Shown in pieces: positions 35,972-42,717 of a stretch of DNA of 64,000 nucleotides. Each line of letters opens with the position of its first letter. Position 1 is the first letter of the stretch. The DNA is from Bacilli bacterium (GTDB taxonomy: Bacteria > Bacillota > Bacilli > Paenibacillales > NBRC-103111), in NCBI GenBank assembly GCA_028287395.1, contig JAQBPR010000190.1:1-64000 (forward strand), in the 5' to 3' direction. A model generated the notes under the pieces. The model had not been told where the DNA came from, did not search any database, and worked only from the letters and a program-made list of their open reading frames with translations. Position numbers and translations under genes: made by a program.

Positions 35972-36310
35972 TTAAAGCTTTTTCTTTCTCAGCATGCCAG
36001 CTATGGCTTTTCGAGGTAGTAAACGGGGAAATAGCGCTGAAAAATAATTTTGCCTGCCATCGATCACAAAGCTTTTCCCCTTGGCCAAGGATTTAAAAGC
36101 AGTTTCCACGACTTGCTCCGTTGTACGAACTTGACCAACGATGACATCGCCAGCAATATTAAAGAAATTGGTTTTTGTTGCTCCTGGACAAAGCGCCAGT
36201 ATTTTAATGCCCTTAGCTCGATATTCTTCCCATAGCGCTTCTGAAAAAGAAAGCGCAAACGCTTTGCCAATACCTGAGGACGCACCTGTAATCAGAGCGG
36301 TCTGATTCAT
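35972..36310 (-). pseudogene. Short-chain dehydrogenase with large in-frame internal deletion
   Basis: Only 112 residues instead of about 260. The start TALITGASSGIGKAFA is the intact NAD-binding glycine motif. It runs straight into LSFSEALWEEYRAKGIKILALCPGATKTNFF, which in intact relatives follows the YxxxK catalytic motif. About 130 codons, including the NAG motif and the catalytic Tyr, are missing without a frameshift; the joint lies where KAFALSF-like sequence occurs in both parts. It is translationally coupled to the DUF3052 gene (ATGA overlap). It cannot be an active SDR. Confidence 0.8.
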
Positions 36311-37710: not shown

Positions 37711-37866
37711 GGTTAAGCCTCCTTTTTCGCTTCATTTAAACCTTGCCATTATATTTCCTTAAAATCCAATAAATATGCTCACACATTTTATATTTGGATG
37801 AATAAATCAAATCATTCCGTGTAAAAATAGTGGTTACAGTTCAATTCGATTGGGGGAGTACTTAGT

Positions 37867-40800
37867 ATGTTTTCAATTGGAAATAAAAGCAGAGATCTTC
37901 ATATACTGCCGGGAAGGATCCGTTTATCCATTATCGGACTAAAAGGAAGCATCCCCATGGCCGAGCTTCTTTTAAAGCAGTTCTCGCAGCTGAATGGCAT
38001 CCAAAAAATCGAACCCAGTATACTGACAGGTAGACTTCTTCTTGTCTTTGATGAAAATTGTATTTCGACTCAACAAATTTTACATATTGTGCATTCAATT
38101 GAAGCAGGGAGCCAAGAAATAGCCGTAACAAGCGAATCAAAACGAAAAGCCATTCCGTTGCCCTTGGCATTATCCATGGGCGGTTTAGCTGTATTAGGAG
38201 CAAAAAGAATATTTTGGGGTCAATCCACTTTAGCTAAAAGTGCCCTTCCTTTTTATTTGTCCGGTTTAGTTTCTGTTCTTTCCGGTTACCCATTTCTTAA
38301 GCGTGGTGTGAAGCAATTTTCCCAAGATAGCAAATTCAATTTCGATTTACTTTTAGGAACAAGTGCTTTAGCTCTTGCTCTTGTACGCGAAAATGTAGTT
38401 GTATTGGCAGGGCTTAGTATTTTGCAATATATAAATTGGCAGCGAAGTCAAACCGAATTGGAATTGATCCAAAATGTTTATTTATCTCCAGAAATAGAGG
38501 CATATAGTCACAAAGCAAGCAAATGGGGGATGATTGCTGCCGGGACGACCTTGGCTGTTACCCGAGATCCCCTAAGAGCCATAGCGATACTTTTAGCTGC
38601 TAACCCCCGTCCAGCAACGATTCTCAGCGAATTTACATGGAACCAGGCCGAGCTTGTGGCGCATGAGCAAAAATATCCAATCCCGAAAAATGGATCTTTA
38701 GCGCAATTATCCAGAACAAAAACGATTTTATTGGAAGATACAACACTTCTTTTCGAGGAAATCGAAAGAGTCCATGGTATTGAGTGCATGTCTAATGAAA
38801 AGGATACGGATAAAATAATATGCTTAGCAGGTTCTCTTATGGAGAAAAGCAATCATCCTTGGAAAAAGGAAGTCTGCCAGAAGGCACAATCAACATGTCG
38901 TACTATGCGTACCGCTTATCATGTGGAAGAGAAAGAACACGGAATAAAAGGACGGATCAACGACTCTGAGGTTCTCTTAGGAACCCTTGCTTACTTACAA
39001 CAATACGGTGTATCAACGTGCGATCAATACCTGATTGAGGAAAACAGGCTGCGAAGAAAAGGCTTTGATGTATTATTCGTTGCGAAGCAAATCAATAAAA
39101 CCAATCAATGCTTAGGTTTGTTAATCAAACAGCGGCAAATAACTACTGAATATAATCCTCTTTTGAAAAGACTAGCTGAAAAAGATTGGAAAATCAGTTT
39201 TTTACAAGACAGTATCAACATTAGACACACTGAATTTCCACGATATGAATTAGACTATAGCTGGCTATCCTGCCAAGAGGGAGAAATTATCGAAAAGATT
39301 GCTGCGATGAACCAACAAGGAAAAGAGGTGCTTTTTGTAGCTGCGAATGAAACAAGCTTGTGGAACGGATATTTAAAAACAGCTGGGGTTCCCACTCTAT
39401 TTTTGCATCAAATGGAGCAGATAATGAAATCCTCGGATTTTGCACTTGCCGTTGATCAGACCGTAAATCTACATTTCCGGCTTACTAAACAATGGAATAT
39501 TTGGGGAACCCTTTTGGCCGCATTTGGTATGATTAGTGCTCCAGTAACTAATTTAATGGCCGACGCGCTTTCTTTAGTGTTCCTTTCCAGATCTAAACAG
39601 GTACATGAGGACCCAGTTACATTTCCATTTGATCAGCATTACATACAAGAGGCAGCCGTTACCTCTGAGGCTATTGCATGGCATACTGAATCGATGGAAC
39701 AAGCTCTAAATCATCATAAAGTCGATGAACAGTGGGGATGCACAACGGATCAAGTTCTTCTTTCTAGACAAAGGTTTGGAATGAACCAGCTCGAAGGAAG
39801 AAAAACGACGCCTTTTTTTATTGCATATTTAGCGCAGTTCAAAGAATTTACTACACTTATATTACTGGGTACTTCTGTTTTTGCGCTTTTTACAGGCGGA
39901 TTATTTGATGGAATTGCGATGGGAAGCATTTTGCTAGTCAACGCAGCCATTGGAACCTTTCAAGAACGAAAAGCCGAAAAAGTAGTCGAAACTTTAAATC
40001 ATTTACAGCCTCATTATTGTAAAGTAATTCGCGAGGGAAAGCAGGTTGAGCTATCTGCGACACAACTCGTTCCAGGCGATATCGTTCACCTTGAGGCAGG
40101 CAATCGAATACCTGCTGATTTACGTTTGCTTCGCACTTGGAATTTACAAGTAAGTGAGGCGGCTCTTACGGGTGAATCCTTGCCCGTTGATAAATACGAA
40201 TCCGCTATTGAGCAAGATATTCCGTTACCCGAAAGAAACAATATGCTTTATATGGGGACTGATGTTTGTCGCGGGAAATGTGTGGCAATTGTCGTCAAGA
40301 TTGGCATGGACACCGAAATGGGGCATTTGGTTGCTCTTTTAAAAAGTGAGGAAAAAGAAGTAACTCCGCTGCAAGAAAAGATAACTTCGATCAGTAAAAC
40401 CTTTGTTAAAGGGGCTTTGATTGCCGGGGGAGTTGTATTCTTAGCTGGGCTTTTGCGTGGAATACCAATCACAGAAATGATCACAACCTCTGTAATATTG
40501 GCTGCCTCTGCTATTCCTGAAGGACTTCCTGTGACAATTACCATTGCGTTAAGTGCCGGTATATTCCGAATGGCCAAAAAAAATGCATTGATCCGAAAGC
40601 TTTCCGCCTTAGAGACCTTAGGAAGAACGACTGTTATTTGTACAGATAAGACAGGCACATTAACAAAAAATGAGATGACTGTTAAAGCGATTGCAACGAT
40701 TGATCGATTGTGGTCTGTAACAGGCAATGGATATGAGCCCATCGGTAATATTGAGGAAATGGTTACTGAAGAAGTAGCGGCATCCTCTACTGCTATACTT

Positions 40801-42417
40801 GATAAAGAGCTTGGCATTGAACCCATCCAGCATCCCGAATTACAACGGCTTCTACAAATAGGATTGCTTTGTAACAACAGTACACTTCATAAGCAGGAAG
40901 ACCATTGGATCATTAAAGGAGACCCTACAGAAGGGGCTTTACTCACCTTAGCGGCAAAAGCAGCTTTATGGCAGCATGACATGCCAAGGTGGCATCGTGG
41001 AGTTGAAGTACCCTTTGACTCCAATACTGGAAAAATGAGCGTGGTTTGTAAAGATTCTGAAACTATAAACCAGCAATGTTTTGTTTTTTCCAAAGGAGCC
41101 TTGGAAACGATTATCCGTTACTGCAGCTACTATCAGCTAAACGGTGAAATTCGCGCTTTAACCGATGATCATAAACAAATTATTATGCAGCAAAACGAAA
41201 AATTAGCCAGTGATGCCTTACGCGTTTTGGGATTTGCTTACCGACCGATAAATGACCATGAACATGAAAAAGGCTTGGATGAAAAAGAAATGATTTATGT
41301 AGGCATGGTTGGCATGATTGATCCACCTAAATCGGAAGTTGAGCTCAACATCCGCGAAGCCTTCGAGCTTGGAGTAAAGCCAGTCATGATTACAGGCGAT
41401 CACCCAATCACAGCTATTGCGATTGCCAAGCAGCTCGGCATTTATGATGGCACCCAAAAGGTTCTATCTGGACATGAATTACAGCACTTAACGGAAGAAG
41501 AATTAATTGCTTTAGTGGATGACATATCTATTTTTGCGCGAGTAACGCCTGAGCATAAGCTTCGTATCGTCGCAGCCTTTCAAAAGCGTGGCCATATCGT
41601 TGCTATGACAGGTGATGGCGTTAACGATACGCCTGCTATCAAACAAGCGAATATTGGCATCGCTATGGGGCTGACAGGTACTGAAGTGACTAAGCAAACC
41701 GCTGTTATGGTTTTAAAAGAAGATCATTTTGGCTCGATCATTGAAGGCGTCAAAGAAGGGCGAACGATTATCAGCAATATTCGCAAAGCACTTGGTTGCT
41801 TACTAACCGGTAATTTAGCAGAGATTCTTGTAACTAGCGCAGCTGTTATAATCGGTTTACCTATCCCCTTTGTACCAATTCAAATATTGCTGATGAATCT
41901 TTTAACGGATGCTTTACCTGCAATGATTTTAGCTGTAAATCCGGGTAATAAAACAAAGCAAACGAAACGTGTCGATATTGTGGATAAGGAGCTGTACCAA
42001 AAGGTTGTCAGCAAGGGTGTCCTGCTTGGTTTAGGATCGCTTGGGCTATACGCAGCTAGTCTTGCAGCTGGAGCACCGATTGCCGTAGCACAAAGCGTCG
42101 CTTTTGCTACTTTAGTTTCCGGACAGTTAATCCAGACATTCTCTTGGAGACAAGAAGGTACCGAAGAGACAGCCGGAGATTGGTCCAAAGATCGTTTTCT
42201 CATTGGTGCGCTTGGCATTTCTTGTTTAGCTTTATTAACCGCTTTATATGTTCCAGGAGTGTCAGGCTTCTTCCATACCGCACCGTTATCGCTGAAATAT
42301 TGGTTGCCCATCTTACTTGTCGCTGGCTCTATTTCGTTTTTCTCAAAAACCTTGCTGTCCCTCATTTCCACCATATCTGTTCAACCCATGAAAACCCTTG
42401 CGAGTGAATCCATCTAA
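37867..42417 (+). CDS. Double P-type ATPase: degenerate P1-like half fused to active P2-type cation pump
   Basis: 1516 residues. Residues 1-85 form an HMA-like domain without CxxC. Residues ~90-600 copy a heavy-metal ATPase in layout, but the phosphorylation site DKTGTLT is replaced by LEDTTLLFEE, while HP (NHPWKKEV) and the GIKGRINDSEVLLG loop persist. Residues ~620-1500 form a complete P2 ATPase: TGES (ALTGESLPVDK, ~766), PEGLP in helix 4, ICTDKTGTLTKNEMTV (Asp ~927), KGDPTEGALL and MTGDGVNDTPAIKQANIGIA (~1246). Length and architecture resemble mycobacterial CtpI/CtpH. The ion is not readable; PEGLP fits Ca, Mn or Mg. ATG follows GGGGGAG. Followed by two small genes. Confidence 0.88.
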   Translation: MFSIGNKSRDLHILPGRIRLSIIGLKGSIPMAELLLKQFSQLNGIQKIEPSILTGRLLLVFDENCISTQQILHIVHSIEAGSQEIAVTSESKRKAIPLPLALSMGGLAVLGAKRIFWGQSTLAKSALPFYLSGLVSVLSGYPFLKRGVKQFSQDSKFNFDLLLGTSALALALVRENVVVLAGLSILQYINWQRSQTELELIQNVYLSPEIEAYSHKASKWGMIAAGTTLAVTRDPLRAIAILLAANPRPATILSEFTWNQAELVAHEQKYPIPKNGSLAQLSRTKTILLEDTTLLFEEIERVHGIECMSNEKDTDKIICLAGSLMEKSNHPWKKEVCQKAQSTCRTMRTAYHVEEKEHGIKGRINDSEVLLGTLAYLQQYGVSTCDQYLIEENRLRRKGFDVLFVAKQINKTNQCLGLLIKQRQITTEYNPLLKRLAEKDWKISFLQDSINIRHTEFPRYELDYSWLSCQEGEIIEKIAAMNQQGKEVLFVAANETSLWNGYLKTAGVPTLFLHQMEQIMKSSDFALAVDQTVNLHFRLTKQWNIWGTLLAAFGMISAPVTNLMADALSLVFLSRSKQVHEDPVTFPFDQHYIQEAAVTSEAIAWHTESMEQALNHHKVDEQWGCTTDQVLLSRQRFGMNQLEGRKTTPFFIAYLAQFKEFTTLILLGTSVFALFTGGLFDGIAMGSILLVNAAIGTFQERKAEKVVETLNHLQPHYCKVIREGKQVELSATQLVPGDIVHLEAGNRIPADLRLLRTWNLQVSEAALTGESLPVDKYESAIEQDIPLPERNNMLYMGTDVCRGKCVAIVVKIGMDTEMGHLVALLKSEEKEVTPLQEKITSISKTFVKGALIAGGVVFLAGLLRGIPITEMITTSVILAASAIPEGLPVTITIALSAGIFRMAKKNALIRKLSALETLGRTTVICTDKTGTLTKNEMTVKAIATIDRLWSVTGNGYEPIGNIEEMVTEEVAASSTAILDKELGIEPIQHPELQRLLQIGLLCNNSTLHKQEDHWIIKGDPTEGALLTLAAKAALWQHDMPRWHRGVEVPFDSNTGKMSVVCKDSETINQQCFVFSKGALETIIRYCSYYQLNGEIRALTDDHKQIIMQQNEKLASDALRVLGFAYRPINDHEHEKGLDEKEMIYVGMVGMIDPPKSEVELNIREAFELGVKPVMITGDHPITAIAIAKQLGIYDGTQKVLSGHELQHLTEEELIALVDDISIFARVTPEHKLRIVAAFQKRGHIVAMTGDGVNDTPAIKQANIGIAMGLTGTEVTKQTAVMVLKEDHFGSIIEGVKEGRTIISNIRKALGCLLTGNLAEILVTSAAVIIGLPIPFVPIQILLMNLLTDALPAMILAVNPGNKTKQTKRVDIVDKELYQKVVSKGVLLGLGSLGLYAASLAAGAPIAVAQSVAFATLVSGQLIQTFSWRQEGTEETAGDWSKDRFLIGALGISCLALLTALYVPGVSGFFHTAPLSLKYWLPILLVAGSISFFSKTLLSLISTISVQPMKTLASESI

Positions 42418-42438: not shown

Positions 42439-42717
42439 ATGAAGCAAAAAAGCGTAGAACAAATCATTGTTGGTGCCGCACTAACATTGGCGGCATCCGC
42501 TTTACTTCCCATCGTAAAAACTACGATTCGTCCCATTGCAATATCGGGAATACAAGGGGCTAAAGCATTAACAACCCAGGTAAAATCAACCTTTCAAAGA
42601 ACACGGGAAGAATTGGAAGACATTGTAGCCGAAGCAAAATTTGAACGATTGAAAAAACAACTCGATCATGAAATTGCGAGCCTGGAGCCTAAAGAGGGAG
42701 GATCAAAGCTTGGATGA
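42439..42717 (+). CDS. DUF5132-like small membrane protein
   Basis: 92 residues. Hydrophobic IIVGAALTLAASALLPIV (about 9-26), basic linker, then a charged helix TREELEDIVAEAKFERLKKQ. Glycine-rich membrane start plus EELEDIVAEA is the DUF5132 pattern. It lies 21 bp after the ATPase gene and has GGAGG upstream, so it is cotranscribed. Probably an accessory or regulatory subunit; that role is inferred. Confidence 0.75.
   Translation: MKQKSVEQIIVGAALTLAASALLPIVKTTIRPIAISGIQGAKALTTQVKSTFQRTREELEDIVAEAKFERLKKQLDHEIASLEPKEGGSKLG

Follow-up and report, generated by a model that had tools for sequence, protein, structure and literature searches.

Double-length P-type ATPases are known from mycobacteria, where CtpH and CtpI represent FUPA24 (TC 3.A.3.24). 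According to the accessible text of PMC3573892, these proteins are about twice the normal length and carry functional motifs only in the C-terminal part; the available part of PMC10654040 describes them as uncharacterised and as a possibly unique family. In the passages accessible to us, an in-silico study of 2012 did not identify the extra half of CtpH/CtpI, and a 2023 review still treats the double-length pumps as uncharacterised. A search of the papers accessible to us returned no further text on FUPA24 beyond PMC3573892. Small partner proteins of P-type pumps have been described as well: PacL (DUF1490) of Mycobacterium tuberculosis stabilises and clusters such pumps, and DUF6110 relatives occur in Firmicutes (accessible parts of PMC9374683 and PMC13043812). 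Here we analyse a stretch of 64,000 nucleotides (the window; positions 1-64,000 of the forward strand of contig JAQBPR010000190.1, assembly GCA_028287395.1) from a Bacilli bacterium (Paenibacillales; NBRC-103111), which encodes a fused pump at 37867-42417 on the forward strand. The open reading frame (ORF) lies where a sequence-only reading of the window had placed it and encodes 1516 amino acids (aa). A dead P1B-like half is fused to a live P2A-like half, and this is confirmed as a real arrangement.

The resemblance to CtpI/CtpH, which the sequence-only reading had pointed out, is plausible. Like FUPA24 the window pump is double-length (intact relatives span 1394-1686 aa), has a large N-terminal segment and keeps functional motifs only C-terminally; the likeness is one of published architecture, as given in the accessible text. 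The two differ in that the available text on FUPA24 does not call its N-terminal part a P1B pseudo-ATPase. On balance we lean, with little to spare, towards a locus that encodes a Ca2+ extrusion complex which is produced in the forespore and present in the spore, with the dead half as a fixed membrane subunit.

The protein begins with a ferredoxin-like HMA_2 domain (residues 1-92, 37867-38142; PF19991, E 7.2e-10). Pfam matches it at residues 12-92, and it was found in all 45 family members scanned. With one Cys (residue 65) and no CxxC, metal binding via a CxxC motif in this domain is ruled out. From residue 93 to about 604, where a complete P2-type pump begins, no Pfam domain scores above cut-off. 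A profile of six rows of dead-half relatives (A2) matches CopA of L. pneumophila (3rfu) with E 3.2e-12, and the predicted fold of residues 1-600, modelled from 45 sequences, has a mean predicted local distance difference test score (pLDDT) of 84.7. The model contains the membrane helices MA, MB and M1-M4 (residues 93-270, 38143-38676) and, by profile, fold and structure comparison, a degenerate phosphorylation (P) domain (residues 271-512, 38677-39402), into which a nucleotide (N) domain is inserted (residues 301-424, 38767-39138); M5-M6 follow at residues 513-582 (39403-39612), all on the forward strand. The nucleotide domain aligns with that of CopA, taken in isolation, with Z 17.3 and a root-mean-square deviation (rmsd) of 2.0 over 116 residues, the remainder of the model with CopA, CadA and ZntA at Z 16-17 and rmsd 8-9. 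Structure prediction, which the sequence-only reading had proposed as a check, thus finds an ATPase fold in the first half. Judged by profile and model, residues 93-582 are a descendant of a P1B (copper/zinc-type) ATPase, with homology beyond chance.

Compared with the P1B ATPases CopA, ZntA and CadA, the dead half shares the HMA-type domain, MA/MB with the GYP kink, M1-M6 and the P and N folds; it lacks the actuator domain, CPx, DKTGT and GDGxND. The site aligned with DKTGT reads EDTTL (residues 290-294), with E290 at the position of the catalytic Asp and D291 at that of the Lys. The degenerate phosphorylation motif had been noticed from the letters (LEDTTLL). DKTGT occurs there in none of the 57 aligned rows, the first letter being mostly E, sometimes D, H or K, and the second D, N or E. 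Positions aligned with TGDN and GDGxND carry unrelated letters, and the Mg site has also been lost. The M2-M3 linker, where P1B pumps have the actuator domain, measures about 12 residues in the model, and neither the window protein nor the family scan gives an E1-E2_ATPase match in Pfam before residue 713; model and profiles indicate that the whole domain is lost. The heavy-metal ATPase layout proposed from the sequence is thus not kept in full. In M4, CPx is replaced by NPR in 56 of the 57 rows and by NPK in one (N246-P247-R248 in the window). An Arg at the ion position makes normal cation pumping by this half unlikely.

What remains is unevenly conserved. The membrane part is the best-conserved piece of the dead half, with a mean pairwise identity of 52.6% over 12 chosen, diverse rows, and it is on this account that we read the dead half as a structural subunit; the P-domain remnant is the least conserved piece (23.8% over the same rows). 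A triplet, R174-E175-N176, sits between M1 and M2. Its invariance is partly built in, because the loci were selected with patterns including [VI]REN; NPR was absent from those patterns. That catalytic motifs and entire domains have been lost is also what would be expected of a decaying relic on its way to being lost. This is scarcely credible, since the conservation of the membrane part and of NPR already contradicts it and 50 of 56 loci are intact.

It had been suggested that the retained HP motif and nucleotide loop allow the dead half to bind nucleotide and so regulate the pump. The fold of the nucleotide domain is indeed kept in the window, and H330 and the GxxG loop are retained in most rows that still have the domain. 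The P of the HP motif is lost in 8 of those 43 rows. The domain itself is dispensable: it is missing from 14 of the 56 named loci, which make up the whole of one Bacillaceae group and retain the membrane part and NPR, and the 10 of these loci placed in the tree form a single clade (support 100/99). One such form is still predicted to fold like a P1B ATPase (Z 14.2 over 299 residues, pLDDT 71). A second group consists of eight genomes of another family (L139-L146), in which the dead half is a standalone protein of 370-511 aa; the nucleotide domain is absent in those read. The deletion in both groups leaves the ATP-regulation proposal unsupported and, with the poor conservation of the P-domain remnant, makes allosteric control of the live pump by ATP improbable.

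The C-terminal half (residues 600-1516, 39664-42414, forward strand) keeps all catalytic motifs, as had been stated from the sequence: TGES at 768, PEGL at 884, DKTGT at 927, TGDHP at 1176 and TGDGVND at 1248, as well as GDPTE. In the 57-row alignment, all 54 rows that have letters at PEGL and DKTGT keep both motifs, and the TGES site reads TGES or SGES in 54 of 54. PEGL of M4, GNLAE of M5 and MN-x-x-TD of M6 (MNLLTD in the window) are retained in nearly all rows with letters at these positions, which in SERCA hold most of the Ca2+ ligands. Among solved structures the nearest matches are Lmo0841, a Ca2+-ATPase of Listeria (7e-153), SPCA1 and SERCA, and the half passes the Pfam cut-offs for E1-E2_ATPase, Cation_ATPase_N/C and the hydrolase domains. 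Domains, motifs and best structure matches are thus shared with the P2A Ca2+-ATPases (Lmo0841/LMCA1, SPCA/PMR1, SERCA), from which the fused pump differs by its dead N-terminal P1B half, three partner genes and scores below the equivalog cut-offs given below. Lmo0841 also has A in M5 where the fused-pump family has E. Because it scores below the equivalog cut-offs we call this half P2A-like, neither PMR1-type nor SERCA-type. The motifs argue for an intact pump of the P2A calcium type, with Ca2+ as its probable ion.

The fusion recurs in many genomes. Strong matches (E below 1e-150) occur in 6 of 59 genomes near the window's own, which is included (11 when weak P1B matches are counted); matches are found in 27 of 104 genomes at the family level, and the module is present in 38 of 398 genomes in a sample of the class Bacilli. 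A scan of named genomes gave 56 loci, in Paenibacillus, Cohnella, Brevibacillus, Aneurinibacillus, Bacillus, Priestia, Thermoactinomycetaceae, Desulfosporosinus and others. Fifty of these have an intact fused ORF (1394-1686 aa), three run off the contig end and three are shortened; the six incomplete loci were retained in the alignment, which accounts for the gaps in the motif counts. A chance fusion absent from relatives, or an assembly artefact, is thereby ruled out. At L101, L104 and L105 the pump ORF is cut by a stop or frameshift (1239, 1234 and 1105 aa), which may be real or an assembly error. A plasmid or mobile origin was also rejected: in 27 plasmid records the dead half matches ordinary heavy-metal or copper pumps, and these only partially. 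A further scan gave 13 of 398 genomes, the window's own included; six of the others were fetched and are module loci. One of the remaining six, G746, resembles an ordinary P1B pump, in a reading where four of seven loci are out of frame.

The two halves also occur as separate genes. Four loci (L133-L136) encode the dead half by a gene of its own (616-678 aa), and live HMA_2-P2A pumps of 1019-1082 aa adjoin it in 4/4 (HMA_2 was tested with Pfam in two of the live pumps). The same loci encode a second dead ATPase, of the P2 type and 869-1046 aa long (e.g. L134:4175-6946), in which none of the TGES, PEGL, DKTGT, TGDHP and GDGVND sites survives (4/4). To our knowledge, conserved separate subunits that are dead P-type ATPases have not so far been recognised as a class of component. 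Outside Bacilli, six fetched loci form a graded series. L168 encodes a fused protein whose N-terminal half keeps an actuator domain and DKTGT (two E1-E2_ATPase and two Hydrolase stretches); at L172 the P1B partner is encoded separately, with SPR in M4 and intact catalytic motifs; L169 and L170 have fused dead halves with NPS in M4; and at L171 the dead half is a separate gene. A live P2A pump or fused live half is kept beside the partner at all six. One genome (G217) has both fused and separate forms. The graded series and the separate-gene loci suggest that in the P1B partner the ion site was lost earlier than catalysis, and that one partnership exists in two states, fused or as separate genes. 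Full-length HMA_2-P1B ATPases adjoin the fused pump at L168:11040-13181 and L170:3608-5875; the former has lost the TGE motif and CPx and retains DKTGT.

Three small genes accompany the pump; they are referred to here as genes P2, P3 and P4. Gene P2 (37459-37710, reverse strand) is divergent to the pump and encodes 83 aa with one predicted transmembrane (TM) helix and an amphipathic helix, both read from the sequence. Gene P3 (42439-42717, forward strand) encodes a DUF5132-like protein of 92 aa with one TM helix, likewise read from the sequence, and gene P4 (42710-42955, forward strand) a soluble-looking protein of about 81 aa, with a probable TTG start at 42710 that overlaps the end of P3. 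Counted over the other loci with room for them, the self-matching window being left out, P2 homologues occupy the same position at 52 of 55, mostly divergent and upstream, and downstream of the pump P3 is in place at 52 of 53 and P4 at 50 of 53. The separate-gene loci L133-L136 likewise carry P3 and P4 (4/4) and P2 (3/4). These small flanking proteins are probable partners of the pump. Both flanking proteins had been called DUF5132-like; the name suits P3, which scores just below the Pfam gathering threshold (PF17195, 23.1 vs 25 bits), but not P2, which matches no Pfam family in the window, nor does P4. DUF5132 is matched by 12 of 24 P3 family members at E 0.01 or better (best 1.6e-7). Among the papers accessible to us, a search found none mentioning DUF5132. 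At L094:15263-18554, extra genes resembling P2, P3 and P4 lie a few kb from the module, and neither P2 nor P4 is found at its usual position.

The accessible descriptions of PacL offer a parallel, as small single-TM proteins encoded with P-type ATPases. The systems differ in that the P3 family matches DUF5132, the window P3 has no His-rich tail, and the pump is P2A-type where that of PacL is P1B. Of 24 P3 family members one matches DUF1490, and weakly (E 0.005), which speaks rather against P3 as a member of PacL.

The fused pump is found with endospore formation, whereas mycobacteria form no endospores. SpoIVA is encoded in 38 of the 38 module genomes of the class sample, compared with 268 of all 398 (hypergeometric 1e-7), and in 6/6 module genomes outside Bacilli, that is, in all 44 tested. 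Upstream of the pump, the sigma-G-like pattern GYATA-N17/18-CATNNTA is enriched: with one mismatch or fewer it occurs in 24 of 50 pump upstream regions vs 14 of 462 controls (Fisher 6e-18), and with two or fewer in 44 of 50 vs 128 of 462 (Fisher 6e-17). On the strand of gene P2, GTATA-N15/16-GGNNANANT is found in 14/50 vs 12/462 controls (one mismatch or fewer). The consensus sequences for sigma-A, E, K, B, H, W and M show no notable enrichment on the pump strand; on the strand of P2, sigma-H shows some enrichment (12 vs 3.0 expected at two mismatches or fewer). According to the available text of PMC3789822, the consensus sequences of sigma-F and sigma-G resemble each other. The pump promoters resemble sigma-G/F forespore promoters, a pattern which suggests that the pump and its partners are synthesised within the developing spore. 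A literature search on forespore or spore P-type Ca2+ pumps found, among the entries listed, nothing describing such a module. The endospore link, the loss of the actuator domain, NPR in M4 and the third conserved small gene all go beyond the sequence-only reading.

Several points weigh against a spore-borne Ca2+ extrusion complex. Ancestry confounds the SpoIVA association, and the module is absent from most spore formers: 38 of the 268 SpoIVA-positive genomes in the class sample carry it. The promoter signal is weaker in an independent set (30 loci, of which 10 were unplaceable and 20 scored), with 4 vs 0.3 expected at one mismatch or fewer and 14 vs 6.5 at two or fewer. The window's own divergent promoter region between P2 and the pump (37711-37866) holds on the pump strand a weak site with two or more mismatches, weaker than most relatives' (TGAATA at 37799-37804, 18 bases, AAAAATA at 37823-37829). 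The sigma consensus strings were taken from general background and not fitted, related loci are not independent in the promoter counts, and among six genes for small acid-soluble spore proteins used as positive controls in the same genome, the -10 element CATACTA is found in three. The live half scores below the NCBIfam equivalog cut-offs for PMR1-type (622.8 vs 798.3 bits) and SERCA-type pumps (516.5 vs 703.4 bits). Last, the eight standalone dead halves of L139-L146 adjoin P3 (8/8) and P2 (7/8), the stretch retrieved around them holds neither a pump nor P4, and a pure pump-subunit role leaves them unexplained. At L141 and L143, which were read gene by gene, the standalone dead half lies beside a cluster that by its sequence resembles the mraZ/ftsI cell-division cluster.

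The rarity of the module among spore formers and the weak window promoter could mean that the protein is an ordinary vegetative export pump for Ca2+ or Mn2+ with an inherited dead extension, its spore link being a side effect of ancestry. We regard this as unlikely though credible; it has to contend with the forespore-type promoter enrichment in fused loci, weaker as that is in the independent set, and with the 44 SpoIVA-positive module genomes out of 44. The pump-less dead halves, together with the dead half as a separate gene at L133-L136, point to another option, namely that the dead half has a role of its own apart from the live pump, such as spore membrane organisation, and that fusion merely co-regulates the two. 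However, those four loci and the six distant ones keep a live P2A pump or fused live half alongside, and the dead-half and live-half trees agree on the major clades (the live-half tree being a quick one only). We consider such an independent role distinctly unlikely.

Under the forespore Ca2+ extrusion reading, the locus would encode a membrane pump complex synthesised in the forespore and carried in the spore. The N-terminal half would stem from a P1B ancestor in which metal binding (CPx to NPR) and phosphorylation were lost along with the actuator domain, and would serve as a fixed membrane subunit, that is, a scaffold, stabiliser or docking platform for the products of P2, P3 and P4, with no role in transport or ATP sensing. 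The live half and the three small proteins would probably contact it through its conserved membrane face and the M1-M2 turn, in a physical complex that may act as a PacL-like platform. P2A pumps export cytosolic Ca2+, so the flux in the forespore or spore would be outward; most likely the live half drives Ca2+ out of the cytoplasm of the spore or germinating cell. The pump may act during germination or outgrowth, as Ca-dipicolinate dissolves, or earlier, keeping forespore Ca2+ low before loading.

It is possible, though we hold it tentatively, that several classes of endospore formers share a dedicated, spore-packed, multi-subunit Ca2+ extrusion machine. One or two dead P-type ATPases, derived from P1B and sometimes also from P2 pumps, would be obligate parts of its structure, alongside a live P2A pump and P2, P3 and P4, and it would clear core Ca2+ as Ca-dipicolinate dissolves at germination. 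If the forespore link is true, the module is a candidate for how a calcium-loaded spore restores low cytosolic Ca2+ on waking. For double-length pumps, an extra half is now identified in a family of like architecture, and the natural deletion series, separate-gene forms and partner genes make its role directly testable.

Elsewhere in the window, at 35972-36310 on the reverse strand, a short-chain dehydrogenase-like ORF of 112 aa passes from its nucleotide-binding motif to the C-terminal part, with the middle seemingly deleted, and is possibly a pseudogene.

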